Position numbers and translations under genes: made by a program. Of a stretch of 37,287 bases of DNA, positions 6,330 through 34,329 are shown piece by piece. This stretch comes from Oscillatoriales cyanobacterium PMM_0080. GTDB taxonomy: Bacteria; Cyanobacteriota; Cyanobacteriia; Cyanobacteriales; Microcoleaceae. Location of the stretch: positions 1 through 37,287 of the forward strand of contig CASBQF010000018.1 in NCBI GenBank assembly GCA_949127775.1, in the 5' to 3' direction. Below the pieces are notes generated by a model, which was given only the letters and a program-made list of their open reading frames with translations, had not been told where the DNA came from and searched no databases. The stretch's first letter is position 1. Each line of letters starts with the position of its first letter.

Positions 6330-6422
6330 AGGATATCAGTGGAATGCGATCGCGCGATCCTCTTCGAGGGCTTCGCCAACGTACAATCATAAATCAGTAA
6401 AATAGAAAGTGAAAAATCGAAA

Positions 6423-6629
6423 ATGACTAATGGTCGCTCCGAACCCAACCCAGAAGAAAACACCTCTCGGCACGCTGTAACTGAGCGCTGGCGCTGTAGG
6501 AAGATGCAGGAAAAGTACGGTTGGAAGTTGCTAGGAATAGAACGCACCGGAGACGACACCCTCAAGTACAATTGCGTATTTGAAGGCGAAACTCAGTTTC
6601 CCGACTATATGGACGACAAGGAGGAATAA
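6423..6629 (+). CDS. Small hypothetical protein
   Basis: A 68-aa soluble, charged protein that I do not recognise as a named family. Its centre reads WRCRKMQEKYGWKLLGIERT, followed by a likely beta hairpin and an acidic tail. It ends three bases before the next gene, and its last codons carry that gene's AAGGAGG ribosome binding site, so the two are almost certainly cotranscribed and translationally coupled. The compact operon structure is the best evidence that both are real. Confidence 0.65.
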   Translation: MTNGRSEPNPEENTSRHAVTERWRCRKMQEKYGWKLLGIERTGDDTLKYNCVFEGETQFPDYMDDKEE

Positions 6630-6632
6630 ACA

Positions 6633-7016
6633 ATGGGCAAGTACATCGTTTTTAGAGCTGACTGGACTGAGGAAAAAGGTGCAGAAAATAGACTGCTAGC
6701 GCATACGGGAATGCTTACCGACATTCTTGCCGAACACTTCGACTCTTCTAACCTGCCAATTCCTCAACCGGGGTACAGATTTCGAGAATTTCACAGGATA
6801 GAAAAGTTTGCCGATCCAGAATTTCCCGCTGCGAGCACGCACAGCCGAGTAGGAGACTGGGAAGTCGTCAGAGTTCAAACTTACTCGGAAGATTTACCTA
6901 GCGGAGACTTTGAGACAATTGTCGTGTGCTATTGCAGGTTCGCACCCGTAAATACTCCCCTCGAACCGATGCCGCAGATTCAAATTGCCCCTGAGTTACA
7001 GAAAATACAGGTTTAG
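6633..7016 (+). CDS. Hypothetical protein, second gene of a two-gene operon
   Basis: A 127-aa soluble protein with no domain I can name. It contains a conserved-looking block (PGYRFREFHRIEKFADPEFP) and ends in a Pro-rich tail. A strong AAGGAGG site lies ahead of the ATG, inside the end of the preceding gene. There are no membrane segments or signal peptide. Function unknown; joint expression with the 68-aa protein suggests that they act together. Confidence 0.75.
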   Translation: MGKYIVFRADWTEEKGAENRLLAHTGMLTDILAEHFDSSNLPIPQPGYRFREFHRIEKFADPEFPAASTHSRVGDWEVVRVQTYSEDLPSGDFETIVVCYCRFAPVNTPLEPMPQIQIAPELQKIQV

Positions 7017-7134
7017 GAGGTATTTTTTCTAAGTTAGACTTCTTGCATAAATCTTTGATTAATTGATTTACCGCTGATTTAAGGACGCAAATCCTTCTAA
7101 AATAGTTGGCGAATGAGTGCAAGAATTTTAGAGA

Positions 7135-7341
7135 TTAATTATTGAGTAATCCTAATATTCTCTTCACCTCTGCTAATGGTACAGAAGGCTGATTTGCTTC
7201 TTCCTCTTTGGCGGCCCTCAAATCCATCAAATCTTCTATGTCAGCAGTTAATTCTTGCAGTGCTTCAAATTCTTCATAAGGAATCACGGCAAATTCTTTT
7301 TTGCCGTTTTTGGTAATAAACTCAGGATGTAACGGAATCAT
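7135..7341 (-). CDS. Phd/YefM-like antitoxin, apparently orphan
   Basis: A 68-aa protein with the hallmarks of a Phd/YefM antitoxin: an N-terminal beta-rich DNA-binding part (FITKNGKKEFAVIPYEEFEAL) and an acidic helical C-terminus (ELTADIEDLMDLRAAKEEEANQP). An upstream in-frame ATG at 7383 exists, but GGAGG lies eight bases ahead of the ATG at 7341, which decides the start. Such antitoxins usually precede a RelE/ParE or Doc toxin; the 118 bases downstream hold no ORF of that size, so the toxin is absent here. Confidence 0.8.
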   Translation of the reverse strand: MIPLHPEFITKNGKKEFAVIPYEEFEALQELTADIEDLMDLRAAKEEEANQPSVPLAEVKRILGLLNN

Positions 7342-7399
7342 CGATATTTCCTCCAGGTATTTAAGAGTAATACCAATTTTCAAAACTTCTGCAACATTA

Positions 7400-7464
7400 G
7401 TAGGGTGCGTCGCTATGAGATTTTTGATATTTCCCTAGGGATTTTTTAGGGCGACGCACCCTAC
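7400..7464. repeat. 65-bp palindromic element with GTAGGGTGCGTCGC ends
   Basis: Perfect 14-bp inverted ends, GTAGGGTGCGTCGC and GCGACGCACCCTAC, enclose an AT-rich centre. Related copies lie at 32601-32662 and 32725-32789. The 7342-7618 gap also holds a CGATCGCC run near 7517; no gene is visible there. Confidence 0.88.
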
Positions 7465-7618
7465 GAATACTTAAGCGACATAGGACGGAAATACCTATCT
7501 TAATATAGGGGAACACCGATCGCCCGATCGCCATTAATTACCTACAATGATAATTATACGGGCGATCGAGCTTTTGCCCCTACAGTATCGCTCTTTTGAA
7601 TTCAGGGAATTAAAATTT

Positions 7619-10234
7619 ATGCAACCGAATAACCCAAACCAATTTACCGAAAAAGCCTGGGAAGCCCTCGCCCGCACGCCAGAAGTTGTCAAAGCTGCCC
7701 AGCAGCAACAGCTAGAAAGCGAACACTTGATGAAGGCTTTGCTGGAACAAGAATCTGGACTGGCTAGCAGCTTATTTAAAAAAGCAGGCGTACCATTAGC
7801 CAAATTGCGCGATCGTACTGATGAGTTTATCAACAGTCAGCCAAAAATCTCTGGAACCGGTGGCAATGTCTATCTCGGCCGTTCCTTGGACACTTTACTC
7901 GATCGGGCTGAAACTTATCGAAAAGACTACGGTGATGAATTTATCTCGATCGAACACCTGATACTAGGGTACATCAAAGATGACCGCTTTGGCAAAAATT
8001 TGTTACAAGAATTTAAACTAGATGAAACCAAACTCAAAGAAATAATTACCCAAGTCCGGGGGAAGAACAAAGTGACCGATCAAAATCCAGAAGGCAAATA
8101 CGAAGCGCTGGAAAAATATGGCCGAGATTTGACAGAAGCAGCGCGTCAAGGCAAACTCGATCCAGTCATCGGACGAGATGACGAAATCCGTCGCACGATT
8201 CAAATATTGAGCCGCCGCACCAAAAACAACCCCGTATTAATCGGGGAACCGGGAGTAGGAAAAACTGCAATCGCCGAAGGACTCGCCCAACGAATTATCA
8301 CCGGAGATGTGCCACAATCTCTCAAAGACCGACAATTAATCAGCTTAGATATGGGTGCATTAATTGCCGGTGCAAAATTCCGGGGAGAATTTGAGGAACG
8401 TTTGAAAGCGGTGCTCAAAGAAGTGATGGATAGTAATGGCAAAGTCATCCTATTTATTGATGAAATTCACACTGTTGTCGGTGCCGGTGCAAGTCAAGGA
8501 TCGATGGATGCTGGCAACTTGCTGAAACCGATGTTAGCGAGGGGAGAATTGCGCTGTATCGGTGCTACTACTCTCGATGAATACCGCAAGTATCTAGAAA
8601 AAGATGCAGCCCTAGAACGCCGTTTTCAACAAGTTTATGTTGACCAGCCGACAGTTGAAGATACTATCTCAATTCTGCGAGGTTTGAAGGAACGATACGA
8701 AGTTCACCACGGTGTTAAAATTTCCGATAATGCGTTAGTGGCGGCGGCTACTTTGTCAACTCGATATATTAGCGATCGCTTCCTTCCTGACAAAGCCATT
8801 GATTTGATGGACGAAGCGGCAGCTAAACTCAAAATGGAAATTACTTCCAAGCCGGAAGAACTAGACGAAATCGATCGCAAGGTTTTGCAGCTAGAAATGG
8901 AAAGATTGTCGCTGCAAAAAGAAAGCAATGCTGCATCGATCGACCGTTTGGAAAGACTAGAAAAAGACTTAGCAAATCTCAAGGAACAGCAAAGCGGCTT
9001 GAATGCGCAATGGCAATCCGAAAAAGGTGTCATCGACAGCATTCAAAAAATCAAAGAACAGATAGATAAGACGAACATTGAAATTCAACAAGCAGAACTA
9101 AAATACGATCTTAACCGTGCTGCCGAGTTGAAGTATGGCACATTAACCGAGTTACACAAACAACTGGAAGAAGCGGAAGCTAAGCTGACAGCAAGTCAAA
9201 TTACAGGTAAAACTCTGCTGCGGGAAGAAGTCACCGAATCTGATATTGCTGAGATTATTTCTAAGTGGACGGGAATTCCGATTAGCAAGTTAGTTGAATC
9301 GGAAATGCAGAAACTTTTGCACTTGGAAGATGAACTACACAAGCGGGTAATTGGACAGGATGAAGCGGTGACGGCGGTTGCAGATGCAATTCAGCGATCG
9401 CGCGCAGGTTTAGCTGACCCAAATCGTCCGGTTGCTAGTTTTATTTTCCTTGGCCCCACGGGTGTTGGTAAAACGGAATTAGCCAAAGCATTAGCGTCTT
9501 ATCTGTTCGACACCGAAGAGGCGATCGTGCGAATTGATATGTCGGAATATATGGAAAAACACGCAGTTTCGCGGTTAATTGGTGCGCCTCCGGGATACGT
9601 CGGCTACGATGAAGGTGGACAATTAACTGAGGCTGTGCGTCGCCGTCCTTACTCGGTGATTCTATTCGATGAAATCGAGAAAGCGCACCCGGATGTCTTC
9701 AATATTATGCTGCAAATTCTGGACGATGGCCGCGTTACTGATGCTCAAGGTCATACGGTAGACTTTAAGAATTCTGTAATTATTATGACATCAAATGTCG
9801 GCTCTCAATACATTTTAGATGTGGCGGGAGATGAGGAACAAATGCGGAGTCGGGTAATGGAGTCGATGCGGGCTACTTTCCGCCCAGAATTCTTGAACCG
9901 GATTGATGAGATGATTATTTTCCACAGTTTGACTAAGCCTGAATTGCGGCAGATTGTGCTGTTGCAAGTTAAGCGCTTGGAAAAACGTTTGGCCGATCGC
10001 AAAATGTCGCTGAAATTGTCGGAATCGGCGATCGACTTTTTAGCAGAAATAGGATTTGACCCGGTATATGGTGCGCGGCCTTTGAAACGGGGAATTCAAC
10101 GGGAGTTGGAAACGCAAATGGCGAAGGGTATTTTGCGGGGAGATTTTGTGGATGGGGATACAATTTTTGTGGATATCGAGAATGAAAGATTGGCGTTTAA
10201 AAGGCTGCCGGCTGGGTTGGTAATTGCAAAATAA
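7619..10234 (+). CDS. clpB: ATP-dependent disaggregase ClpB (ClpB1-like)
   Basis: An 871-aa Hsp100 chaperone that extracts polypeptides from aggregates together with DnaK/DnaJ/GrpE in the cytoplasm. The order is an N-domain (residues 1-150, two Clp repeat motifs), AAA1 with Walker A GEPGVGKT near residue 205 and Walker [11 protein letters not shown], a coiled-coil middle domain (about 410-530, rich in E/K/Q), and AAA2 with Walker A GPTGVGKT near 605, the pore loop [11 protein letters not shown] and Walker [12 protein letters not shown]. Its N-terminus ([16 protein letters not shown]) resembles the heat-inducible ClpB1 of Synechocystis as I remember it. An upstream in-frame ATG at 7547 adds 24 residues that do not fit the family, so the ATG at 7619 is preferred. 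Confidence 0.97.
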
Positions 10235-23069: not shown

Positions 23070-23966
23070 ATGCTCAATAGAGGTTTGAGAAAAATAAAAA
23101 GAGAAGCTTCTCTGCTTCAATCTAGCTTATCTTATAAGTGGAGACTTTTTCAACACGTCAAAAAATTACCTGCACTGAATCCGACGAATCAGTCTATTGT
23201 CGAGGCTCTTAGGAAGGAAGGGGCTTTTATTACTTCTCTACAAGATTTGTCATTGCCAATGAATGAACAACTTTTGGATGCAGTGAAGGCGATATTACCT
23301 CATAATCCAAAATCTCCGGCTTTTGAAGATCAATATGTTTATCATGTTAATTCAGCAGAAATTATCAAATATTCAGAAATCTTTTTATGGGGTCTTCAAG
23401 AGCGGTTATTTGACATTGCTGAAAATTATCTTGGGGTTCCGGTTGCTTACCGGGGTTTGTTTTTTCAGAAAGATTTTGCGAACGAACAACAGGTACATAC
23501 AAGATTGTGGCATAAAGACCCTGAAGATCATAGACTCCTCAAAATAGCTGTTTACTTGAATGATGTGAATCCTGAAAGTGGGCCGTTTGAATATATTCCA
23601 AAGCATTTCAATTCTCAGTTAAGCCCTCTCAAACGAAAACTTTTATTTTCTGACGCAGAAGTAGCGGAACATTTAGACCAATCAAATTGGGTTTCATGTA
23701 CAGGGCTAGCAGGTACTGTTGTCTTTTTCGACTCTCACCATGTTTTTCATCGCGGTAAGATGCCTGTCAAGTCACACCGCGACGCAATATTTTTTAATTA
23801 TCACTCTAGACAACCGATTAAAGTGTTTTCTGATCATTGGAAAGCTCCTTTTTCACCAGATGAGTTACTCGTGCTTTCAAAAACTCTTTCTCCACGCCAG
23901 AAAGAATCAGTTTTTTGGTGGGAAAATGGTGCGGAGTCATTCCAGCCAAAGTTGATGGCTAGGTGA
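23070..23966 (+). CDS. Phytanoyl-CoA dioxygenase (PhyH)-like oxygenase
   Basis: A 298-aa putative Fe(II)/2-oxoglutarate-dependent oxygenase. The iron-binding triad is visible as the HKD in RLWHKDPEDH (about residue 150) and the distal His in HHVFHRGKMPVKSHRDAIFFNYHSR, whose Arg would hold 2-oxoglutarate. The centre VYLNDVNPESGPFEYIP is typical of PhyH proteins. The substrate cannot be told; no biosynthetic partner adjoins. The base composition is AT-richer than in its neighbours and it is wedged between the intact cyclophilin and a fragment of a second copy, which suggests later insertion. The ATG has a weak ribosome binding site. Confidence 0.85.
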   Translation: MLNRGLRKIKREASLLQSSLSYKWRLFQHVKKLPALNPTNQSIVEALRKEGAFITSLQDLSLPMNEQLLDAVKAILPHNPKSPAFEDQYVYHVNSAEIIKYSEIFLWGLQERLFDIAENYLGVPVAYRGLFFQKDFANEQQVHTRLWHKDPEDHRLLKIAVYLNDVNPESGPFEYIPKHFNSQLSPLKRKLLFSDAEVAEHLDQSNWVSCTGLAGTVVFFDSHHVFHRGKMPVKSHRDAIFFNYHSRQPIKVFSDHWKAPFSPDELLVLSKTLSPRQKESVFWWENGAESFQPKLMAR

Positions 23967-23990
23967 AACATTTAATCAAGGAAAGGGGAA

Positions 23991-24041
23991 GTGAATCCTA
24001 TCCGCCAAACCGACAATATTATTTCATTGATCGAGTATTGA
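23991..24041 (+). pseudogene. Decayed duplicate of the cyclophilin 3' end
   Basis: The 17 codons translate as VNPIRQTDNIISLIEY followed by a stop, against [17 protein letters not shown] at the end of the cyclophilin gene, with one codon lost. The similarity continues past the stop to about 24093, matching 22823-22880 including the GTTTGTARTAAGGA repeat. The upstream part of the second copy is absent. Confidence 0.85.
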
Positions 24042-24113
24042 CTCTCAGTAATTGAGTTTTGTTTGTAGTAAGGATTAAAGTTCTTATTATAAACTTAACT
24101 CGGTTAAATTGAA

Positions 24114-24713
24114 TCATTCATCTTCAAGGGAAATGTCTAACTGTTCAATCTCCAAATCTTCTTCCTCATCTTCATAATTAAATTCCAATCTGCTCTGTTT
24201 AATAATTTCTTTCAATATTCTATTTAAATATCCTTTGGCAATAGCCTCTTCAAATCTTTCGATAAGAATAGCAACATTAATTATTTCTTCTATACATTCC
24301 ATGTAACGTGAAACTATTGCATTTATTGAATACTGTTTTCGAGCTTGGACTTCGATTTTAGATTTAATTTCAATATCAGAATCTGAAGATTTAACGACAA
24401 ATGTTATCGGATACTTTTCAATTTTATCAATGTCTAGGAAATATTTATTCATATCTACAGTTTCTGTCACCTGAAAAAACCGTCCTAGGGGTTTCATTAC
24501 AAAGTCAATTCCCCCATCATTTGCATTTGTCCTACCTGTTTTAAACAGTTTTAAATTTTCTTGCTGGAGCTGATCAACCTCATAACCCCAATAAATTGAT
24601 CGGTCACTATAGTAGTATTTTAATATACTATAGCTGACAATCTCGAAGATTCTAGCATCTACCGTTGGTGCGAGTATTTGTTTAATAAATTCTATTACTT
24701 GAGCCTCTGTCAA
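24114..24713 (-). CDS. Putative restriction endonuclease, C-terminal part (split by amber codon)
   Basis: A 199-aa open stretch in the same frame as the ORF at 24825-25259; the in-between codons (24714-24824) are also open, so only one TAG at 24825-24827 separates them. It contains NANDGGIDFVMKPLGRFFQVTE, which fits a PD-(D/E)XK-like nuclease core (D...E with a Q-V strand), and ends in an acidic tail (EDEEEDLEIEQLD). Its nominal start is a TTG without a ribosome binding site, so independent translation is doubtful. Its position behind a methyltransferase makes it the likely restriction subunit. The family is not one I can name. Confidence 0.65.
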   Translation of the reverse strand: MTEAQVIEFIKQILAPTVDARIFEIVSYSILKYYYSDRSIYWGYEVDQLQQENLKLFKTGRTNANDGGIDFVMKPLGRFFQVTETVDMNKYFLDIDKIEKYPITFVVKSSDSDIEIKSKIEVQARKQYSINAIVSRYMECIEEIINVAILIERFEEAIAKGYLNRILKEIIKQSRLEFNYEDEEEDLEIEQLDISLEDE

Positions 24714-24824
24714 TGCTTGAGCCTCTTTACAAAGTTGAAGAAATTTTTCAAAGCTATCTCTCTTAGCTTCAACGTAGGCGTCAATAATTTGAATTACTGT
24801 TTCGGCTATATTATGTACGTTTTC

Positions 24825-25259
24825 CTAAATTTTAACTTTTAATAAATTCTCGTTAAACCAATACCTGCTAGTTTTCGGATTTCTCAGAATTGGGATGAAG
24901 TCACAAGTCGGAAAATATCTTTTAAATTCTTCATTAAGTCTGTGGTTCAAAGCATGGTTTTGAAGCTTTTGTCCAAACGGTAATTCGCGCTGTCTCTTCA
25001 AAATATTTGTATAAACGGCACCTTCATAATCTGAATACATCTCGCTTTGATGAAAATCTCTTGAAAAATAGTCTTCAACTAAAACATATATAGCGTATAA
25101 ATTGGCAAAACTCCCTCTTGATTTTGAGCCTTTATTTGCAGATTTAGTTTTGATATTCAAATATTGAATTAGCTCGCTTCCAGCAAATACTTGTTCACCA
25201 GCAGCACCAAAGTTTTCTTGTAAAACTTTTTTAATTGTTTTTGTAAATTCGTGTTCCAT
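24825..25259 (-). CDS. Putative restriction endonuclease, N-terminal part (ends at in-frame TAG)
   Basis: A 144-aa ORF starting four bases after the methyltransferase stop, so the genes are cotranscribed. The sequence (FAGSELIQYLNIKTK, SFANLYAIYVLVEDYF, NPKTSRYWFNENLL) looks like the N-terminal part of a type II restriction enzyme. It ends at TAG and the frame continues open for 236 more codons; the joined protein would be 380 residues with the TAG as one of them. Either the nuclease gene is inactivated by a nonsense mutation, or readthrough occurs, or the base is a sequencing error. Confidence 0.65.
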   Translation of the reverse strand: MEHEFTKTIKKVLQENFGAAGEQVFAGSELIQYLNIKTKSANKGSKSRGSFANLYAIYVLVEDYFSRDFHQSEMYSDYEGAVYTNILKRQRELPFGQKLQNHALNHRLNEEFKRYFPTCDFIPILRNPKTSRYWFNENLLKVKI

Positions 25260-25263
25260 TTTA

Positions 25264-26115
25264 TCAAAATTGTAAATTGAGTGTTAGTTGTTTTGGTGAA
25301 CTTGCAAGTGAATTGACTTCGGAGCTTTGAGCCTGCTGATTGTCATCAGAAGTAATCTGTAATCTATTTAATCCTATTTCTACATATTTTTCTTGTAATT
25401 CTATTCCGACTGACTTTCTATTAAGTTTTTTGGCAACAAATGATGTAGTAAAAGTTCCAGAAAATATATCTAGTACAACGTCTCCCTCGTTACTACTTGC
25501 TTTAATAATTCTTTCTAACAAAGATGTTGGTTTTTGGGTAGGATGATCTTCATATTGGGGCATACGATATCTGACTCTCGGAAACTCCCATACATTACCT
25601 GGAACTTTTTCAGAATTATATACTGATGGTGTAGACTTGCGGTAATCCATTAATTTTCTGACAGATCCAGTTTTTGCTTCTACCAAAATATCTGAGGAAT
25701 TAAATGTATAATTTCGTTTGTCTTTGACACAATATAAAATAGGTTCGTACAGAGAACCATAATATTTTTTTGCTTGGACACCCGAACTGTCATAATACCA
25801 CACTATGCGAGAAAGAATTGTCAAACGATCGCGCAAATATATATCAAAGTAAGGCATACATTGAGTGGATGCCATCAAATACAAGCTGCCGTTTTCCTTG
25901 AGCTTATCAATACATAAATTCAACCAAGTATAACTCCATTCTAAATAAGCACTTTCAGATTCCCACTTATCTTTAAAACCATTGAAGTCCTTGCCAATAT
26001 TATAGGGAGGATCGGCAAAAATCAAATCAATTGAGTTGTCTTGAATTTCACTAGAAAGGACTTCTAATGCATCTCCCAATATGAGCTTGTGTCTGTCTAC
26101 TTCAAAGATTTTCAT
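25264..26115 (-). CDS. DNA adenine-N6 methyltransferase, YhdJ-like (beta class)
   Basis: A 283-aa methyltransferase transferring a methyl group from SAM to adenine in DNA. The catalytic DPPY motif is at 35-38 and the SAM-binding FSGT is at 218-221, the order of the beta class. Long stretches (SRIVWYYDSSGVQAKKYYGS, EAKTGS, KVPGNVWEFPRVRY, HPTQKP) match what I remember of E. coli YhdJ, which methylates ATGCAT. The same target is plausible here but unproven. A TTG at 26184 would overlap the preceding gene; the ATG at 26115 has AAAGG upstream and fits the family. It is followed closely by a broken putative endonuclease. Confidence 0.92.
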   Translation of the reverse strand: MKIFEVDRHKLILGDALEVLSSEIQDNSIDLIFADPPYNIGKDFNGFKDKWESESAYLEWSYTWLNLCIDKLKENGSLYLMASTQCMPYFDIYLRDRLTILSRIVWYYDSSGVQAKKYYGSLYEPILYCVKDKRNYTFNSSDILVEAKTGSVRKLMDYRKSTPSVYNSEKVPGNVWEFPRVRYRMPQYEDHPTQKPTSLLERIIKASSNEGDVVLDIFSGTFTTSFVAKKLNRKSVGIELQEKYVEIGLNRLQITSDDNQQAQSSEVNSLASSPKQLTLNLQF

Positions 26116-26180
26116 TTTGCCTAACCTTTTCCAATCAATACGTACTCTTGTCGGATATAGTTGATATTTACCAGAAATAT

Positions 26181-27305
26181 TCAATACAGTTCATACTTGA
26201 GCAAAGTACACGGAATCGACCCATTGTAAACTGGAATCCGCTTTGATGTCCTGAGTCCAACTTGTTTCCCCAACTCCTTATTTCCTGTCAAAATAAACGC
26301 ATTCCAACCTTTAAAACGCTGCTTGAAAATATCGCCTAACATTTTATAAAGTTCTCCCAATTCCGCCGCATCTCCCAGTCGCTCTCCGTAGGGAGGATTG
26401 CAAATCAGAATGCCACTGTCTGATGGTGGTTCCAACTCGGATAACTCGGTTCTAGCAAACTGAATTTTACCTGCAAGACCTGCTTGTTGTGCATTGGTAC
26501 GAGCTTGGGTTAACATATCAGAATCGCGATCGCATCCTACGACTATTTGCTTAAGTTCTGGTAATTCGCTATTTTCCGCTTCGGCCCACAATTTATCCCA
26601 TAAAGGTTCGTCAAAATCCCGCCAAGTCATAAATCCAAACTTTTCTCGAAACAATCCTGGTGCAATATTTAAGGCTTTTAAACTGGCTTCTAAAGGTAAG
26701 GTTCCAGAACCGCACATTGGATCTAAAAAAGGCAAATCAGGTGTCCATTCTGCCATATCCAATAAAGCAGCAGCTAGGGTTTCTTTGAGGGGAGCTAGCC
26801 CTACCGCAGGCCGATATCCGCGTCGGTGCAAACTGCCGCCGGAACTGTCTAAACTTAAGATACCTCGATCGCGATGAATGTGAATATTGATCAGCAAATC
26901 GGGATTTTCGACATCGACACTCGAACGCTTGTTGAATTGATGGCGCTGTTGGTCGGCGATCGCATTTTTGACCTGCAAAGCTGTAAAGTGAGTATGATTT
27001 AGCTTGTCGTTGCCACCTGTACAGTTGACTGCTAGGGTGTTATCAGGATTTAGGTATTCGTCCCAAGGAATTCTCTGGACTGCGCCGTAGAGCATATCTG
27101 AGTTGTAGCACTGAAATTCGGCGATCGGCATTAGCACTCGAAAAATTGTTCTCGACCACAGATTGACGCGGTACAATAAAGTGCGATCGCCCGAAAAGTA
27201 CACACCTGTAAAATCTGGCCGTACATCCTGCGCGCCTAAACGTTCTAATTCTTGGGCGGCGATAGTTTCTAATCCGCGCGCCACTGTAGCAAAGTATTGA
27301 TTCAT
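26181..27305 (-). CDS. THUMP-domain rRNA methyltransferase (RlmL-like)
   Basis: A 374-aa class I RNA methyltransferase. The N-terminal half holds a ferredoxin-like and THUMP RNA-binding region (YFATVARGLETIAAQEL and DNTLAVNCTGGNDKLNHTHF). The C-terminal half has SAM motif LDPMCGSGTLPLEA and catalytic ICNPPYGERLG. The family modifies guanine N2 in 23S rRNA (RlmL of E. coli, whose N-terminal half this matches in length) or related RNAs. It lies immediately upstream of the restriction-modification genes on the same strand, but its function is housekeeping. Confidence 0.93.
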   Translation of the reverse strand: MNQYFATVARGLETIAAQELERLGAQDVRPDFTGVYFSGDRTLLYRVNLWSRTIFRVLMPIAEFQCYNSDMLYGAVQRIPWDEYLNPDNTLAVNCTGGNDKLNHTHFTALQVKNAIADQQRHQFNKRSSVDVENPDLLINIHIHRDRGILSLDSSGGSLHRRGYRPAVGLAPLKETLAAALLDMAEWTPDLPFLDPMCGSGTLPLEASLKALNIAPGLFREKFGFMTWRDFDEPLWDKLWAEAENSELPELKQIVVGCDRDSDMLTQARTNAQQAGLAGKIQFARTELSELEPPSDSGILICNPPYGERLGDAAELGELYKMLGDIFKQRFKGWNAFILTGNKELGKQVGLRTSKRIPVYNGSIPCTLLKYELY

Positions 27306-27315
27306 TAGTTAATTG

Positions 27316-27357
27316 TTATTTGTTAGTGGTTATTTGTTAGTGGTTATTTGTTAGTGG
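27316..27357. repeat. 14-bp tandem repeat, three copies
   Basis: Three perfect copies of TTATTTGTTAGTGG lie upstream of the RlmL-like gene start. Confidence 0.95.
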
Positions 27358-27766
27358 TTTCTACTGACATCTGACAACTGACTGATAACCATAGTAGCTG
27401 GTTTTAATCCTAAGTATCCCAAAAATTACTCTACCTTAAGATAGATGCGTTGGTTCCCAAAAAGTTCTAGATATTTTTAAGGAAATTTGTCAACAAGCGA
27501 TCGCACTTGTTCTCTTTTGTGCGTAAGGGCGATCGGGCTAACTCACAACGGATATATCTTCAACGTCTCGCTGTACAAGGAATTCAGCTCTATTCTCCAG
27601 ACTATGGCAAAGTACGATCCCATCTTCTTATTGAAAAGTATTATTAACTACTTGCGCTATTTATTGACTTCATGCTAGGCTACTGAAAACTGAAAGTTAA
27701 ATCCCAAACATCATAGCCAGGGAAGACTTCAGCTAAACAGGTGTATCACAACAATTGGAGACAATT
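27358..27766. other. Gap upstream of the 50-aa peptide gene
   Basis: No gene can be supported. One plus-strand frame stays open from 27471 to 27647 and reads like protein (RANSQRIYLQRLAVQGIQLY), but it lacks an ATG and a ribosome binding site. A different frame gives a 63-aa ORF with even less support. The promoter for the peptide gene should lie in the last 150 bases. Confidence 0.4.
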
Positions 27767-27919
27767 ATGTCAAAGCAAATTAACGGATCGGCTCTCAAAC
27801 TGTCCCGCGCTAGCAAAATCCAAGTAGAAGTCAAGGAAATTGCCAAGCACGTCACAACGAAGAATAGCTCTTCTATGCTCAATGTTGATGCCGATGGCAG
27901 TGATGTTAGCAACGAATAA
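27767..27919 (+). CDS. 50-aa peptide, candidate RiPP-like precursor
   Basis: A short ORF with GGAGA seven bases ahead of the ATG. The N-terminal part (1-33) is basic and helix-prone (SALKLSRASKIQVEVKEIAK), like a leader. The last 17 residues are different in character: three Ser, then MLNVDADGSDVSNE, rich in Asp, Asn and Ser. The next gene on the same strand encodes a JmjC-type hydroxylase, an enzyme class that hydroxylates Asp, Asn, Arg or His side chains, so the peptide is a natural candidate substrate. There is no Cys and no double-Gly site, so a lanthipeptide or sactipeptide is unlikely. The RiPP reading is inference. Confidence 0.65.
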   Translation: MSKQINGSALKLSRASKIQVEVKEIAKHVTTKNSSSMLNVDADGSDVSNE

Positions 27920-27950
27920 TTGCAGATTTTCTTGTTAGATTTCGCATCCT

Positions 27951-27984
27951 CAAGCAAGGATTAATAGATTTTACTCCTTGCTTG
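27951..27984 (+). other. Stem-loop between peptide gene and hydroxylase gene
   Basis: CAAGCAAGGA pairs perfectly with TCCTTGCTTG over a 14-base loop. There is no T run after it, so partial termination, mRNA processing or 3' end protection of the peptide message are all possible. Confidence 0.7.
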
Positions 27985-28060
27985 CGGGATTACCATCAGG
28001 GTATTACCCATAAAAATTGCTTTTTTCAAGAATTATTGATAATAATTATTAGCAAGAAAT

Positions 28061-29209
28061 ATGCGATCGATCGCCAACCTTTTACAACCATACAATCTCC
28101 AAGAATTTTTAGACAACAACTGGACTTACAAAGCAGTTGTAATTCCCAGCGAAGGTAATAAAAGTTTTGCACATCTATTCTCCTGGGAAAAACTCAACTA
28201 TATCCTGAATTTTCACCAACTAAAATATCCCGACATTCGCTTATCAATAGGAGGAAAAGTTCTTGATGAAATCGCAAACGCTAATTTGATTAAATCTTGC
28301 CAATCGGGAGCAACTTTAATCATCAATGAAGTACACAAACTAATTCCAGAAATCGCTAACTTTGCAGCGGAAATAAAGTCAGACTTTGGCTATGCAAATC
28401 AAGTAAATGCTTACTGTTCATGGCCAGAAAAACAAGGATTTGATTCCCACTATGACACCCACGAAGTTTTTATATTACAAGTAGACGGAATCAAGCAGTG
28501 GTATGTATTTGAAGACACAATCAAGTATCCGCTGAAAGAGCAAAAATCTTCAGCTTTTCCACCACCCGAAACCGCAGCATATTTAAACTGCACTTTACAT
28601 CCAGGGGATGTGCTTTATATACCGCGAGGACATTGGCATTATGCAGTTGCTGGCGACGAACCATCGCTGCATTTAACATTGGGAATACATTGCAAAACCG
28701 GAATTGACCTGTTAGAATGGTTGGTAGGTGAACTGCGCGAACAATCAGAATGGCGCAAGAGTTTACCATTGCGAACAAACGCAGATTCGATCAATGCAAA
28801 TGTCAACAACTTAATTGCCCAATTGCACAGCTATACAAACAGTGAAAATATGGCAAATGAGTATAGTAGCTATCTGGATAGTTTAGGAAATCCAGTTGCC
28901 AAATATTCTTTGCCTCATCAAGCAGGATTTAACATTTTTCCCTATGGTGTGCAAACCAAATTTAGAATTCCCCAGTTTCAACGAGTCAGAATTCACGAAT
29001 TACCTGATGGGTGCGGATACAAAATCGTTGTTGCAGGTAAGGAAGTATCTGTGAGAGGAGTCACAGCTAAATTTATGGACAATTTATTCAGTATGGAGTT
29101 TTTTACTGGGGAGGATGTGATGGATTGGTTGCCGGATTATGATTGGGAAATAGATGTAGTTCCGCTTTTGTCGCAACTGGTAGTTGACGGAATTATTTTT
29201 GTTGGTTAA
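28061..29209 (+). CDS. JmjC/cupin-type 2-oxoglutarate hydroxylase
   Basis: A 382-aa putative Fe(II)/2-oxoglutarate protein hydroxylase. The JmjC core shows the iron-binding HYD at 130-132 (FDSHYDTHEVF) and the distal His in IPRGHWHYAV (191 or 193), with KQWYVFE between them. Length and the C-terminal winged-helix-like segment (GEDVMDWLPDYDWEIDVVPLLS) recall the bacterial ribosomal oxygenase YcfD/RoxA group, which hydroxylates an Arg of a ribosomal protein. Its neighbour, however, is a 50-aa peptide gene 141 bases upstream. The ribosome binding site is weak, which would keep enzyme levels below those of the peptide. Confidence 0.85.
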   Translation: MRSIANLLQPYNLQEFLDNNWTYKAVVIPSEGNKSFAHLFSWEKLNYILNFHQLKYPDIRLSIGGKVLDEIANANLIKSCQSGATLIINEVHKLIPEIANFAAEIKSDFGYANQVNAYCSWPEKQGFDSHYDTHEVFILQVDGIKQWYVFEDTIKYPLKEQKSSAFPPPETAAYLNCTLHPGDVLYIPRGHWHYAVAGDEPSLHLTLGIHCKTGIDLLEWLVGELREQSEWRKSLPLRTNADSINANVNNLIAQLHSYTNSENMANEYSSYLDSLGNPVAKYSLPHQAGFNIFPYGVQTKFRIPQFQRVRIHELPDGCGYKIVVAGKEVSVRGVTAKFMDNLFSMEFFTGEDVMDWLPDYDWEIDVVPLLSQLVVDGIIFVG

Positions 29210-29241
29210 AACTGAGATGTTGCACCCGGATTCAAAAACTT

Positions 29242-29300
29242 GTAGGGGCGGGTTCACCAATAACTTTAAAAGGTGCAGACAAGTTAAATAAACCCGCCCT
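29242..29300. repeat. Palindromic element with GGGCGGGTT ends
   Basis: GTAGGGGCGGGTTCACC at the left pairs through GGGCGGGTT with AACCCGCCC at the right. It is the first of four related elements between here and 31172, in inverted orientation to the others. Confidence 0.85.
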
Positions 29301-29418
29301 CACCCACAAAAAAGCCCCTGATTGAGAATGGTACTCTTCGCTGAGTTAAAACTGGAGAAGAAAATAAGTTTTGATACATGGGTTGTGAAAAAACATAACG
29401 TATACAATGAGGTAAGTA

Positions 29419-30441
29419 ATGATGGATAAGTTTTTTTGTGCTGATGCTGCTAAATGCGCTCAAGAGGATATTATTGGTACAGCGAGTAATTACCAAACCT
29501 ATGTATTGATTGAATGCTGTTTACCTTGGGAGTCGGAAGCTTTCAACTCAAAGCAAGTTCCCCAAAATCTCAGGGATTTGGTAGAGGAAGTAGAACATTC
29601 AAAGCAAAAAATTCGCTTTTTGTTAATCAATAGTGACAAACATAAATCTGCGAATCAGCGCAAAATCTTGATTTATAACAACAAACATCAAGAACTTTTT
29701 GGTGGCTATGAAAAGCACGAATTTAATGTAGATGATATTGACAAAGTAGCGGGAATTGTCAAAAGCTATTTAGCTGGAGAAGTGCCTGGTTGCGAAGTTG
29801 AAAATAACTCAAGTAGAGATATTTTGGTTTGTACTCACGGTAGTCATGATATGTGTTGCGCGAGGTATGGGAATCCTTTTTATGCTGAAGCAACAGGTTT
29901 GGTTTCGGAGTTAGGATTGGATGATGTTCGTGTTTGGAGATCCAGTCATTTTGGGGGACATCGGATGGCACCGACTGCGATCGATTTGACTGATGGGAGA
30001 TATTACGGAAATCTCGATCGCACTTCGTTGCAGTCAGTTTTAACACGCACTGGCGATATTCAATGTTTGAATAAAGTTTACCGTGGTTCGGGAGTTTTGT
30101 CAAGCCCAGTCCAAGTTTTGGAGAGAGAGTTAATCATGCTTTACGGGTGGGATTGGTTTAATTATAAAGTCGCCAGCACAATTATCGATTTAGATACAAA
30201 AAATGATGCTTTCTTGGCTGAAATTACCTTTGAGAAAGCAGATGGCACTTATAGTTATCGTGCCGATTTGGTGAAGGATGAAATCAAAACTGTTCGACTC
30301 AAAGGTTCCTGTGGTGCTCAGAAAGAGTCGGAATTTGTCAAGTATTCTGTAGAAAATCTCCATTTTTACTCGAAAAATGAGGATTTAAAGTTTGTGATTC
30401 CTCCTGCTGTTTTGATGGCAAAAATGGTCGAAGCCATGTAA
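29419..30441 (+). CDS. Sucrase/ferredoxin-like (Apd1-type) thioredoxin-fold iron-sulfur protein
   Basis: A 340-aa protein of the Suc_Fer-like family. The thioredoxin-like ferredoxin domain carries CTHGSHDMCCARYG (Cys138 and Cys147, spaced by eight) and SHFGGHRMAPT (His177 and His181, spaced by three). This is the same Cys2His2 pattern that binds the [2Fe-2S] cluster in yeast Apd1 and Aim32. A redox or electron-transfer role is therefore likely. GAGGT lies ahead of the ATG at 29419; a second ATG follows at once. It is codirectional with the JmjC gene but 209 bases away with a repeat between them, so a shared transcript is uncertain. Confidence 0.88.
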   Translation: MMDKFFCADAAKCAQEDIIGTASNYQTYVLIECCLPWESEAFNSKQVPQNLRDLVEEVEHSKQKIRFLLINSDKHKSANQRKILIYNNKHQELFGGYEKHEFNVDDIDKVAGIVKSYLAGEVPGCEVENNSSRDILVCTHGSHDMCCARYGNPFYAEATGLVSELGLDDVRVWRSSHFGGHRMAPTAIDLTDGRYYGNLDRTSLQSVLTRTGDIQCLNKVYRGSGVLSSPVQVLERELIMLYGWDWFNYKVASTIIDLDTKNDAFLAEITFEKADGTYSYRADLVKDEIKTVRLKGSCGAQKESEFVKYSVENLHFYSKNEDLKFVIPPAVLMAKMVEAM

Positions 30442-30477
30442 GATTTTGTCCTATTGATCGCGCACAATACATAAGCC

Positions 30478-30537
30478 GGGGCGGGTTTTTGAGATTGTCG
30501 GTTTTTGGCAAATATTGTTTGTGAACCCGCCCCTACA
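30478..30537. repeat. GGGGCGGGTT..AACCCGCCCC element
   Basis: Inverted ends of 10 bp surround GATTGTCG and GGCAAATATTGTTTGTG. It lies between the convergent ferredoxin-like and GNAT genes, where the stem could end transcription from both sides. Confidence 0.88.
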
Positions 30538-30541
30538 GGCA

Positions 30542-30979
30542 TCATGGTTGAATTTGTAATTGCATAAATATATGCGGAATTCCTAGGAAATCAAAGGGAT
30601 TTTCTTGTTCGACAAATCCGATTCTTTGATAAAATTTAATGGCGTTAATTCGAGATTTAAGTCTTAAAGTTTTGAGATGTTTTGCTTGAGCTTTTGTGAT
30701 TAATTTTTCAATTAGTTTAGTGCCAATTCCCTGATTTTGAAATTCAGGAAGTACCGCAACGTAACTGATACTTCCTAATTCTGGGGATAATTCTCGCAGT
30801 CTGGCTGAAGCAATGATTTGCCGATCGCACATTCCAATTAAATGCACAGCGCCATCCTCGTGATTGTCCCTTTCGCTGCCCTTTTCCATGCCCAGGGGCG
30901 ATCGCAAAACCAGCCACCGCTGATCGAACATTTCTGCTAATTCCTGTTGGTTGTTGACTTCACGGATGTCTAGTAGCAT
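30542..30979 (-). CDS. GNAT family N-acetyltransferase
   Basis: A 145-aa acyl-CoA-dependent acetyltransferase. The central beta strand and acetyl-CoA-binding loop read SYVAVLPEFQNQGIGTKLIEKL (the Q-N-Q-G-I-G pattern). INAIKFYQRIGFVEQ is the typical motif B end, and LGIPHIFMQLQI closes the fold. The substrate cannot be inferred. It faces the ferredoxin-like gene and is separated from tldE by two repeat elements, so it is likely a single transcription unit. Confidence 0.88.
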   Translation of the reverse strand: MLLDIREVNNQQELAEMFDQRWLVLRSPLGMEKGSERDNHEDGAVHLIGMCDRQIIASARLRELSPELGSISYVAVLPEFQNQGIGTKLIEKLITKAQAKHLKTLRLKSRINAIKFYQRIGFVEQENPFDFLGIPHIFMQLQIQP

Positions 30980-31023
30980 TTTTCGATTAGATTAAAGAGG
31001 TAGATTGCAATTTACTATTGGGT

Positions 31024-31085
31024 GGGGGCGGGTTTATTTAGATTGTCGATTATAGGCAATTATTGTTGGTGAACCCGCCCCTACA
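31024..31085. repeat. GGGGCGGGTT..AACCCGCCCC element, second plus-orientation copy
   Basis: It matches 30478-30537 and 31113-31172, with internal GATTGTCG and GGCAATTATTGTTGGTG conserved. Confidence 0.88.
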
Positions 31086-31112
31086 GGATAAATTACTCGC
31101 ATTAATCTCGGT

Positions 31113-31172
31113 GGGGGCGGGTTTAGGAGATTATGGGTTTTAGGCAATTATTGTTGGCGAACCCGCCCTACA
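31113..31172. repeat. GGGGCGGGTT..AACCCGCCC element, third plus-orientation copy
   Basis: It starts 28 bases after the previous copy in the same orientation and shares GGCAATTATTGTTGG. It lies just past the tldE stop codon. Confidence 0.88.
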
Positions 31173-31191
31173 AATTATGGTAAATATGGAG

Positions 31192-32541
31192 TTACAAACT
31201 ATCAGTAATACTCGTGAAATTAAATGCTTTCACGCGCACTCCGGGCACGACACTACCGCCGTAACGTTTCGCCTCGGTAAGGGCATCGACATCGCGCAAC
31301 ATATCAGGTAAAACTTGATTGAAACGGAAATTTTTAATCGGATAAACAATCTTACCATTTTCAATCCAGAAAGTACCGTCGCGAGTCATTCCTGTTACTT
31401 CCGATGTTTTCGGATTGACATAGTTGACATACCATGCCCGACTGACAAAAATTCCGCGTTCAGTTTGAGCGATTAAATCTGCTATACTTTGGTCGGAACC
31501 TGTCATCACGATCGGGTAATAACTACCTTTTGCTTCTTTGCCTTTTTGTGCGGCCCAGTAGCGGGAATAAGACAAACTTTGAGGAATGCCATTTTTGATG
31601 ATTTCCAAATAGTTATTGCTCAATCCATCGCCGAAAAAATTATTCGATCGCAATAAAGGATGACTTGGATCGCGCTGTACCTGCACTAACGGGCTGAAAA
31701 GTTGTTCGCCAGCGCGGTTTCCAGCGGGTTTTCCGGCTGCATCTGCGATCGACATAAACGATCGCCCTTCATCCGCCGCCCGCGCATCCATTCCCCAAAT
31801 AATCCACGGTAGCAAGTCCGCAAACGCAGCGCCATCAAAGATGACAGGATACACGCCGGGAGTGATTTCACGGGGGTTGCGGGAGGCCTTGGCGCGATCG
31901 ACAACTTGTGCTGCTAATGCCGCTACTGGTAGTTGATTGATACCCCAAGCCGTGCTTTCCGTCCAGCTAGAACCGTCTCCAATGCGGGCTGTAAAGCCGA
32001 AATTCGCCTCTGTAGACTGATTGCAGGCGCGGAGTCCAGTTGACGAGGCGATCGCGAACAACGAAGCCTCAGCGCTCAAAGTACCCGAAGCATCTGCGCC
32101 TGCTTGAGATGCGATCGCACAAGCTTGTCGTACCATTTCAGCGCGGGCTAGGGGCGATACAGAGGCTGTTGCTGCATCGAACGCCGGCCGTGGTGAATCG
32201 TAGGTTTGAGGGGGTAGCAAGGGCATCCATTCGGGGTCTGCGGGGGCAATTTTGGCTAGTTCTTGCGATCGTTTGACTGTTTGGGCGATCGCATCTTCAT
32301 CAAAATCTGTCACAGATGCAGAAGCGCTTTTGTTACCGAAATAGCTAGTAATGTTGAGGCTAAATACAGTCTTGCTAATATTTTGGCTGATTTGATTTTC
32401 CGAAAATCTCGAAAGAGATTCTTCGCCAGTTGAGAGACTGACAAATACTGCTTCGGCTTCGGATTGTTTGACAATTGAATCTAGCAGAGACAATGCTCTA
32501 TCTTCACTTAAAATTGCGGGAGATGTTGTTGTTGCAGTCAT
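31192..32541 (-). CDS. tldE: TldE/PmbA-family protein
   Basis: A 449-aa member of the TldD/PmbA superfamily, the non-catalytic partner type. It lacks the HExxxH zinc motif found in its neighbour. The family fold is visible in SRFSENQISQNISKTVFSLN and ITPGVYPVIFDGAAFADLL, and in RDGTFWIENGKIVYPIKNFRFNQ. With TldD it forms a heterodimeric metalloprotease that degrades unfolded peptides and trims leader peptides, as in microcin B17 and some other RiPPs. A 300-base repeat-rich gap separates it from tldD on the same strand. No ribosome binding site is obvious. Confidence 0.9.
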   Translation of the reverse strand: MTATTTSPAILSEDRALSLLDSIVKQSEAEAVFVSLSTGEESLSRFSENQISQNISKTVFSLNITSYFGNKSASASVTDFDEDAIAQTVKRSQELAKIAPADPEWMPLLPPQTYDSPRPAFDAATASVSPLARAEMVRQACAIASQAGADASGTLSAEASLFAIASSTGLRACNQSTEANFGFTARIGDGSSWTESTAWGINQLPVAALAAQVVDRAKASRNPREITPGVYPVIFDGAAFADLLPWIIWGMDARAADEGRSFMSIADAAGKPAGNRAGEQLFSPLVQVQRDPSHPLLRSNNFFGDGLSNNYLEIIKNGIPQSLSYSRYWAAQKGKEAKGSYYPIVMTGSDQSIADLIAQTERGIFVSRAWYVNYVNPKTSEVTGMTRDGTFWIENGKIVYPIKNFRFNQVLPDMLRDVDALTEAKRYGGSVVPGVRVKAFNFTSITDSL

Positions 32542-32600
32542 AATTGATAATTGGATGGTAATTTGTAATCGCAGATATCAGGTAGATTGACGCAGTATCT

Positions 32601-32789
32601 GTAGGGTGTGTCGCCATCGACAATCTCTAAAAAACCGCCAAAATCTCATAGCGACGCACCTTCTGTCATGCCATAAACAAGCTTCCTACAATCTTTTTTG
32701 GGGTTTGTGTATTCCACGCAATGTGTAAGGTGCGTCGCTATCAGATTGTAGGTTAAACTTAGGGATTTTTATCAGGCGACACACCCTAC
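32601..32789. repeat. Two palindromic elements of the GTAGGGTGCGTCGC family
   Basis: Copies lie at 32601-32662 and 32725-32789, with ends GTAGGGTGTGTCGC/GCGACGCACC and GTAAGGTGCGTCGC/GCGACACACCCTAC. The second is followed by CGAATACT, as is the copy at 7400-7464. The rest of the tldD-tldE gap holds another common repeat, TCTGTGTTCTCTGCGCCCTC, near 32797-32826. Confidence 0.85.
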
Positions 32790-32841
32790 GAATACTCTCT
32801 CTCTGTGTTCTCTGCGCCCTCTGTGGTTAAATCATTCCGAA

Positions 32842-34329
32842 TTAAGCCCTTCCCCCAATTTGAATATCCCTAACTCGCACCGGCACACAAGCATGAGTCA
32901 TTTGAGCAACCTGCATCGGTTCACCTTTTCCACACATATTCGTACCACATTGTACCCGTTCGGAAGCAGGGCCTATCGCATCTACTTGATTCCAGAAATC
33001 CGTGCTCATCGAATGATAAGTTACATCCTTCAACATTCCGACAACCTTACCTTTTTCCACCTTCCAGAAAGCATTGCCACCGAATTGGAAATTGCGCCGC
33101 TGTTGGTCAATTGAAAAACTGCCAATACCATCAATTAAAATCCCATCTTCCGTATCAGCAATCATCTCATCCAAAGTAGCAGTATGACTGCCGCCATCCG
33201 GGCCCGGTTCCAATCCCAAATTAGGAATTCTGACCATCGGTACACTCGACCAACTATCAGCGCAGGCAGAACCGTTGCTGCTACCACGTCCGAGGCGATA
33301 AGCTGTTTCTCTATCAGTCAGATAATCAACTAAAATTCCATCCTTGACAACGTACCAATCCTGTGATTTTACGCCCTCATCATCGTAGCCCATTGTACCG
33401 CGGCCGGCAGGTTGAGTCCGATCGCACTTAAAGTTCACCCAAGGTGCAGCGTATTGCAGCTTATGCAATTTATCAGTAGTCGCAAAGCTTGTGCCAGCAA
33501 AATTAGATTCGTAGCCGTAAACTCGGTCTAATTCCGTGGGATGTCCGACGGATTCGTGGATTGTCAGAAACAAATTTGTCGGCTTCAGAATCAGGGATTT
33601 GCAAATACCAGCAGGGACTTTCGGCGCTGCGACTTTCTCAATCGCTTCGGCTGCAACTCGTGCGACTTGACTCAATAAATCATCGGGATTAATATGTTCG
33701 TAACCGATGTTTAGGGGCGGGCGTTCGTAACTGCGACTTTGGGCATCGCCGCCCGCAATTGCCGTACAGCCAAAACCGGGATAGCTACGGTAGATTGTTT
33801 GTTCGATTAGCGAGCCTTCTGTGGACGCAAAAACCTTGTCTTCGCGGTTTACCTGCAAAAAAGAATAAGCTTTTTTGATGCCTTGTGAATCGTGGGCTAG
33901 CAGGCGCTCGTTGATGGTTAATAGGAGTTCGGCTTTGTCAGCCACGGGTACAGAAAATGGGTCAATTGCGATCGGAGTAATGTAAGTATCGACATATTTT
34001 TCGACAGGTACTAAGCGCACCGGTTCCTGTTGAGTCAAGCGGCTGCCTTTAGCAATTTCCACAGCCAAAGCGACGATTCTGGCAACCTCTGCGGGTGTTT
34101 TGTTGTGACTTGCAGCAAAGCCCCAAGCGCCGTCTAGCAAGACTCGCACGCCAAAACCGGAACTTACATTATCGGAGATATTGCTTAAAGATCGATCGCG
34201 CGCATACAAACTTTGCCGTCGGTAAGTGCAAAAACGCACGTCACCATATTCGCATCCAGATTTCTGAATCAAATCTACAGCCAAATTTGCTAACTCGTTA
34301 GCAGAAACTTTTGCGGTTAACAGTACCAT
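32842..34329 (-). CDS. tldD: TldD-family metalloprotease
   Basis: A 495-aa zinc protease. The catalytic motif HESVGH (His258, Glu259, His263) and the following TELDRVYGYE are intact. The C-terminal FWKVEKGKVVGMLKDVTYHS and CGTNMCGKGEP segment supplies the usual third zinc-ligand Cys region. TldD with TldE cuts unstructured peptides in a shared chamber in the cytoplasm. The gene is upstream of tldE on the same strand, as expected for a functional pair. Its N-terminus (MVLLTAKVSANELANLAVDL) fits the family. Confidence 0.94.
   Translation of the reverse strand: MVLLTAKVSANELANLAVDLIQKSGCEYGDVRFCTYRRQSLYARDRSLSNISDNVSSGFGVRVLLDGAWGFAASHNKTPAEVARIVALAVEIAKGSRLTQQEPVRLVPVEKYVDTYITPIAIDPFSVPVADKAELLLTINERLLAHDSQGIKKAYSFLQVNREDKVFASTEGSLIEQTIYRSYPGFGCTAIAGGDAQSRSYERPPLNIGYEHINPDDLLSQVARVAAEAIEKVAAPKVPAGICKSLILKPTNLFLTIHESVGHPTELDRVYGYESNFAGTSFATTDKLHKLQYAAPWVNFKCDRTQPAGRGTMGYDDEGVKSQDWYVVKDGILVDYLTDRETAYRLGRGSSNGSACADSWSSVPMVRIPNLGLEPGPDGGSHTATLDEMIADTEDGILIDGIGSFSIDQQRRNFQFGGNAFWKVEKGKVVGMLKDVTYHSMSTDFWNQVDAIGPASERVQCGTNMCGKGEPMQVAQMTHACVPVRVRDIQIGGRA

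Follow-up and report, generated by a model that had tools for sequence, protein, structure and literature searches.

An Asp-tailed peptide gene inherited with a JmjC oxygenase gene in cyanobacteria suggests an RiPP-type operon

In the window, by which we mean the whole stretch of 37,287 nucleotides from Oscillatoriales cyanobacterium PMM_0080 that was analysed here, a gene for a 50-amino-acid peptide and the JmjC oxygenase gene downstream of it belong to a pair that is inherited together, a conclusion that we hold to be close to certain. We think it fairly probable that the pair forms part of an RiPP-type operon, in which the leader of the peptide docks on an RRE-like domain of the JmjC protein and the Asp-rich tail is hydroxylated. 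A sequence-only reading had described the 50-amino-acid ORF with its ribosome binding site, a 10-bp stem-loop and the JmjC gene on one strand, and these elements were borne out at their coordinates; as the extent of a unit the description holds for peptide, stem-loop and JmjC, and it left out a third, Suc_Fer-like gene. The features referred to below are the following.

27757-27761, plus strand: Shine-Dalgarno-like sequence GGAGA, 5 nt upstream of the ATG
27767-27919, plus strand: precursor peptide gene, 50 aa (MSKQ...VSNE), based on recurrence and purifying selection
27812-27841, plus strand: leader recognition motif SKIQVEVKEI, residues 16-25, based on the profile of 70 precursors, pN = 0 in codons 14-27 and a strand at 19-24 in an AF2 model
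27875-27916, plus strand: putative core or tail, MLNVDADGSDVSNE, based on Asp in the last 20 residues of 70/70 tails
27887-27898, plus strand: D-A-D-G motif inside the putative core or tail
27951-27984, plus strand: 10-bp stem with a 14-nt loop between the peptide and enzyme genes, based on a hairpin consensus
28061-29209, plus strand: JmjC_2 (PF08007) Fe(II)/2-oxoglutarate oxygenase gene, based on Pfam, alignment, AF2 and Foldseek
28958-29206, plus strand: C-terminal domain of the JmjC protein, about residues 300-382, a putative RiPP recognition element, based on DSSP of the AF2 model
29419-30441, plus strand: Suc_Fer-like (PF06999) gene, third of the unit, Pfam E 9.7e-30
31192-32541 and 32842-34329, minus strand: TldD/PmbA metallopeptidase gene pair, based on Pfam

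Selection on the peptide ORF was measured in the window and 11 close relatives, that is, in 12 Microcoleus-group sequences from which L060, one codon shorter, was left out. As expected of a gene, and as the sequence-only reading had proposed to check, the ORF is conserved at the codon level: its pN/pS is 0.24 (pS 0.278, pN 0.066), it has no internal stop in any of the 12 sequences, and codons 14-27, which contain the motif, show zero non-synonymous change. For the JmjC gene, computed on 8 of the same 12 sequences, pN/pS is 0.18. Mean DNA identity to the window reaches 89% in the peptide ORF as against 60% in the 200 bp upstream and 60% in the gap before the JmjC gene, and many of the relatives' precursor ORFs have GGAG in their upstream bases. 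The window peptide matched no NCBIfam or Pfam model at E 0.1, while 33 other precursors scanned in the same way gave some low-complexity or weak matches. Short ORFs are common, 49 of at least 30 aa overlapping positions 26000-31500, which would leave room for a chance ORF beside an unrelated enzyme; selection at the codon level, recurrence and position refute this explanation, and we reject it.

The recurrence was followed in several sets of genomes. A precursor-like ORF lies upstream of the JmjC gene on the same strand in 39 of 41 named contigs, a count obtained with a regular expression to which a few literal strings, including those for Streptomyces and for L098, were added after inspection of the loci. 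The gap measures 75-456 bp, and in the window it is 141 bp long and holds the perfect 10-bp hairpin. The 39 paired contigs range from cyanobacteria to Streptomyces and a deltaproteobacterium (L098), and the two misses are L079, with only 150 bp of upstream sequence, and L084; the closest named relatives of the window's JmjC protein come from the filamentous cyanobacterium 'Phorm 6' (94%), Tychonema (89%) and Microcoleus (88%). A precursor profile built from 34 precursors and searched in 282 genomes of the order (E <= 0.01) matched 36 genomes, 34 of which also encode JmjC, and in 34/34 of these both lie on one contig with a match-to-match gap of 96-988 bp (median 169). Both matches without JmjC are weak (G422, E 0.0025; G578, E 0.0077). 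JmjC itself occurs in 70 of 291 genomes of the order (E 1e-10), and Fisher's test of co-occurrence gave a P of 6e-22, a figure that ignores kinship and combines two slightly different genome draws. The 36 JmjC genomes without a profile match were missed in part because longer precursors score poorly, and several precursors were then found there by eye. Of the 15 genus genomes present in both listings, 9 have precursor and JmjC and 6 have neither. Thus, the pairing suspected from position alone was confirmed, in that a precursor with a conserved leader and a variable tail recurs beside JmjC homologues, and, as in RiPP loci, a modifying enzyme stands beside its precursor and is inherited with it.

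Beyond these sets the pair thins out. Outside the cyanobacteria it seems to be rare: among 247 genomes of the phylum to which L098 belongs, JmjC matched only L098's own genome and one weaker, and among 296 genomes of the class that includes the Streptomyces locus L094, only L094's own. A further JmjC search matched 21 of 373 genomes; it added L253 and L260 with precursor-like ORFs, L262 and L264 without, and L263, which is cut at the contig start. Viral relatives of the JmjC protein show 21-31% identity among the best 80 of 188, and the plasmid relatives, mostly Streptomyces cupin proteins, are all below 60% identity in 20 of 58 records. At 40 loci precursors were picked by eye, and 22 of the 40 have one (that of L227 was taken from L049); among these 40, none was seen at the 11 loci L211-L221. 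The remaining seven, JmjC loci inside the clade, likewise gave no precursor, namely L084 (on the same contig as L223), L190, L192, L193, L206, L222 and L224. A motif scan of 16 held-out loci had its best match at the expected place in nine, one of which, L095, is a false motif, and it missed L084, L093, L098 and four Streptomyces loci.

In a midpoint-rooted tree of 87 JmjC sequences, the nine precursor-less loci L211-L219 fall outside with a support of 1.00, and the alignment of their proteins to that of the window is confined to about residues 4-237; the precursor-less L220 and L221 are placed, weakly, beside L098 and L241 (support 0.45). Inside the tree, precursor types mostly track JmjC clades, the label 'Sec' there standing for a length above 73 aa with no signal-peptide test. 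A separate arrangement was observed at L233, where the JmjC relative has no leader-motif precursor: a 121-aa ORF upstream of it (8544-8909, minus strand) combines a start of double-glycine-like type with D-V repeats (DVDIEVDVDLNFDANVDVDID); a GGxGxD-repeat protein is encoded nearby at 5303-7057.

A Suc_Fer-like homologue follows JmjC in 26 of the 41 named loci, one of them the deltaproteobacterial L098, where JmjC shares no more than 32% identity with the window's. It was not found in the other 15, which comprise L072, cut by the contig end, four Streptomyces loci, six loci with N-S-repeat precursors (L087, L088, L090, L093, L095, L096) and L082, L084, L085 and L097. Within the window's genus the distribution is patchy: JmjC is present in 15 of 29 genomes and Suc_Fer in 16, the two agreeing in 28 of 29, with G559 the sole genome that has Suc_Fer without JmjC. 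In G540 (L243) and G584 (L244), rlmL adjoins the GNAT gene and there is no match to any of the three unit genes. A second copy of the arrangement was found in G1139 (L241), where JmjC (31.6% identical to the window's) and Suc_Fer (33%) stand side by side and where, by eye, two tandem precursor-like ORFs lie upstream of this second-type JmjC; such a separate copy speaks clearly for joint action of the three genes. We therefore regard a precursor-JmjC-Suc_Fer unit in many lineages as well supported. At L098 the stretch 7102-9951 continues after Suc_Fer with a 305-aa ORF that matched nothing in Pfam, followed by an ABC transporter gene, so the unit there may be a fuller pathway.

The anatomy of the peptide was read from 70 unique precursors, a set that excludes the later-found peptides of L241, L253 and L260 and whose motif anchors were read off the sequences themselves. 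The commonest letters of the leader motif are R-A-S-K-I-Q-V-E-V-K-E-I, and its hydrophobic positions alternate (I in 59/70, V or I in 56/70, V or I in 69/70, I or L in 58/70), as would befit a beta strand. The share of Asp is 1.8% of the residues through the end of the motif versus 14.5% beyond it, and Asp alone is represented among the final 20 positions of every one of the 70 tails; D-x-D-G is present in 36 of them. The second, divergent precursor-like ORF of L241 has no Asp at all. Short Asp-tail precursors are found in Microcoleus, Moorena, Symploca, Brasilonema and others. In Nostoc, Fischerella and others the precursors are longer, with D/N/Q/Y or N-S repeats and, judged by eye, mostly a Sec-like start; those of Streptomyces carry ..PNLEVDQKDV. 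In some precursors a tail unit is repeated two or three times, as NFDADGGDR is three times in L226. The Sec-like precursor of L260, a cyanobacterium outside the window's order, ends in ..RDYDANRDDNRDARYDYRPGRRSRGGS, and its ORF starts 519 bp upstream of JmjC. Lanthipeptide-like chemistry was rejected, as Cys accounts for 0.2% of residues beyond the motif, and so was Arg or His as a universal target, the window tail having neither.

Between genera, then, a gene-encoded precursor combines a conserved leader with a variable core, as RiPP precursors do; the variation lies between genera rather than within the Microcoleus group, because the tail pN/pS there is 0.13. This conservation within the group would also suit a peptide that is a small functional protein, for example a metal-binding protein or an oxygen-responsive partner, whose hydroxylation is regulatory and which undergoes no leader removal and yields no natural product. 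Such a role would agree with a three-gene unit that contains neither protease nor transporter, with the low-complexity, polymer-like character of many tails, with the resemblance of the longer versions to secreted Asp/Asn-repeat proteins, and with the JmjC relatives NO66 and YcfD, which modify standing proteins. We nevertheless consider it unlikely, since from genus to genus the tail varies and expands by repeats while the leader motif stays, which is the usual pattern of a precursor, and the ABC transporter gene downstream at L098 also argues against it.

The enzyme matches JmjC_2 (PF08007) with 89.8 bits, the gathering cut-off being 22 (E 1.3e-25). In an alignment of 30 sequences H130, D132, H191 and H193 are invariant, and H130, D132 and H193 are the predicted H-x-D ... 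H iron triad. An AF2 model made from 30 sequences (pLDDT 87.3, pTM 0.68) was matched by Foldseek to NO66 (E 7e-25), MINA53, YcfD and YxbC. NO66, MINA53 and YcfD are side-chain hydroxylases. Sequence-profile matches to PDB proteins span positions 3-285 at most, with the exception of 2k19 over positions 242-319, which is at chance level (E 0.58), and residues 288-382 have no Pfam match. According to DSSP of the AF2 model, this C-terminal part has strands at 309-313, 319-324 and 327-332 and helices at 336-342, 350-356 and 362-375, with a short additional strand at 347-349 between the first two helices. The order bbb-aaa of secondary structure elements defines an RRE in the available part of PMC12710340, and by this order the C-terminal domain is a putative RiPP recognition element. 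A separate 90-aa copy of this domain with its own ATG was noticed at L238 (3349-3621, minus strand), downstream of JmjC and adjoining a 52-aa partial copy and Suc_Fer, with a three-repeat precursor in the same stretch; it might serve recognition on its own, or else be left over from a duplication.

Since the best fold matches are ribosomal oxygenases, the JmjC protein might itself be one, with the peptide only its regulator or inhibitor. We find this very improbable in view of the patchy distribution in the genus (15 of 29 genomes), the absence of the unit as a block in L243 and L244, a C-terminal domain unlike the one of NO66 or YcfD in sequence, and co-inheritance with a variable-tailed peptide. 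As to the peptide's side of the contact, peptide, gap and enzyme share a frame, and their read-through was folded in AF2: residues 19-24 formed a strand, where the sequence-only reading had expected a helical front, and within peptide and gap only residues 14-25 reached a pLDDT of at least 50 (block means 64 and 51). This strand fits pairing with another strand, in what is a single low-confidence model.

For the RiPP-type operon that we favour, we propose the following course. The modelled leader strand S-K-I-Q-V-E-V-K-E-I would dock on the RRE-like domain that the model shows at the C-terminus of the JmjC protein, and docking would place the tail, rich in Asp (..NVDADGSDVSNE), at the Fe(II)/2-oxoglutarate centre, where the enzyme would most likely convert one or more Asp to 3-hydroxyaspartate. 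Among possible targets Asp is the strongest candidate because it is present in all 70 tails and the nearest folds are side-chain hydroxylases; the Asp-free second precursor of L241 counts against it. Where present, the Suc_Fer-like protein would probably be a redox partner that keeps the iron reduced or performs a second oxidation, a role suggested by the family name only. A peptidase encoded outside the unit would then remove the leader, with the TldD/PmbA genes at 31192-34329 as a candidate, and variants with a Sec signal might be exported instead as modified peptides. The product would perhaps bind metal or calcium, as D-x-D-G and the Asp-rich repeats suggest.

A leader-directed RiPP could also be subject to a different oxidation of its tail by JmjC, such as a cross-link, a desaturation or hydroxylation of Asn, Ser or Glu. 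Enzymes of the 2-oxoglutarate family perform many oxidations, 2OG-dependent macrocyclization in RiPPs appears in a title cited by PMC12710340 (ref. 45), BipG acts on Orn and not Asp in the available excerpts of the biphenomycin papers, and the L241 peptide without Asp points the same way; as Asp alone occurs in the last 20 positions of 70/70 tails, and as NO66, MINA53 and YcfD, which are nearest in fold among solved structures, are designated side-chain hydroxylases, we regard a different oxidation as rather unlikely. A bolder version of the hydroxyaspartate reading, which we put forward as tentative and on balance doubtful, is that of a widespread new RiPP class defined by one JmjC-RRE fusion enzyme that, by hydroxylation under guidance of the leader, turns Asp-rich repeats (D-A-D-G, D-Y-D, D-Q-N) into poly-3-hydroxyaspartate peptides binding calcium or iron; the class would then parallel, by a ribosomal route, the D-x-D-G calcium peptides and the beta-hydroxyaspartate siderophores.

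The inverted repeat between the peptide and JmjC genes (27951-27960/27975-27984) is perfect over 10 bp with a 14-nt loop and has no T run after it. A hairpin consensus was obtained across 13 sequences with a covariation term of only -0.11, and the hairpin is probably an expression element. An Rfam scan of 27000-31000 found no RNA family or riboswitch at the gathering score, and promoter and terminator scans gave no more hits than in shuffled sequences. A dispersed short repeat occurs in both orientations at about 29237-29309, 30478-30537 and 31016-31085, one copy sitting between the JmjC and Suc_Fer genes, and blastn found several copies in L243 and other relatives.

Among the neighbouring genes, the GNAT gene at 30542-30979 was rejected as a fourth member on the evidence of the genus genomes, because it is present without JmjC in G540, G559, G584 and G1143 and lies on a different contig from JmjC in G195, G1135 and G1139. 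TldD/PmbA enzymes trim some RiPP precursors. The TldD/PmbA pair was also rejected as part of the unit, since its two genes lie close to JmjC in no more than 8 and 7 of the 41 named loci, all from close relatives; its first gene persists in L243 and L244, next to the sites that lack the unit, and so appears to encode an enzyme of general cell function, not one specific to the unit. Further upstream, two minus-strand ORFs at 24114-24713 and 24825-25259 correspond to one 381-aa ORF in L242, so this gene appears broken; it is in two pieces in L062 as well, adjoins a DNA methylase gene (25264-26184) and is possibly the restriction partner of the methylase.

Compared with known systems, the nearest RiPP chemistry is that of biphenomycin, where BipG/BpmG and PbsQ are JmjC/cupin hydroxylases (PMC12707348, PMC12257519) and, as given in the available parts of these papers, the likeness lies in a JmjC-type 2OG enzyme and a hydroxylated residue on a ribosomal precursor. 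BipG is described there as a gamma-ornithine hydroxylase, not one acting on Asp, and the window tail, unlike biphenomycin, has no Arg or Orn source. The biphenomycin clusters, in the same excerpts, carry a TldD-type gene and add an MNIO, an arginase-type enzyme and a B12 radical SAM enzyme, none of which was found by Pfam among the eleven window ORFs of 23070-34329, where JmjC is the only clear modifying enzyme.

The ribosomal oxygenases NO66, MINA53 and YcfD share the JmjC fold. By sequence, the window protein matches NO66 over positions 3-239 and YcfD over 14-285; its C-terminal domain is unmatched, and, unlike them, it is linked to a small peptide gene. YxbC of B. subtilis (1vrb, 7zcc) is JmjC_2-like as well (profile E 2e-20), with a match only to position 263. 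Calcium-dependent lipopeptides carry a D-x-D-G motif and are nonribosomal; the likeness, which includes D-A-D-G, extends over four residues only.

That the sequence-only reading could name no described class for such a peptide-JmjC pair agrees with the literature: among the matches listed, in a search that left subscription journals mostly outside, no published description of the peptide family or class was found, and an RiPP-like family with a lone JmjC-RRE enzyme and its precursors is most likely undescribed. Among the closest published systems are the fusions of JmjC PF08007 with an RRE in fish and algae reported in PMC12710340 (2025), whose accessible text also places the closest bacterial JmjC homologues in RiPP-like contexts. 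These fusions have in common with the window protein a bbb-aaa domain joined to JmjC_2, whereas precursor, leader motif, tail, third gene and class are described here and not in the accessible text of that paper. If our reading is right, a stand-alone JmjC oxygenase that carries its own leader-binding domain would define an RiPP family, dozens of natural substrate variants with one to many tail repeats would be at hand for tests of residue choice by JmjC enzymes, and cyanobacterial genomes could be searched with the leader motif. It would likewise supply bacterial substrates for JmjC-RRE fusions which, in the accessible text of PMC12710340, are recorded, eukaryotic ones included, with no partner peptide.
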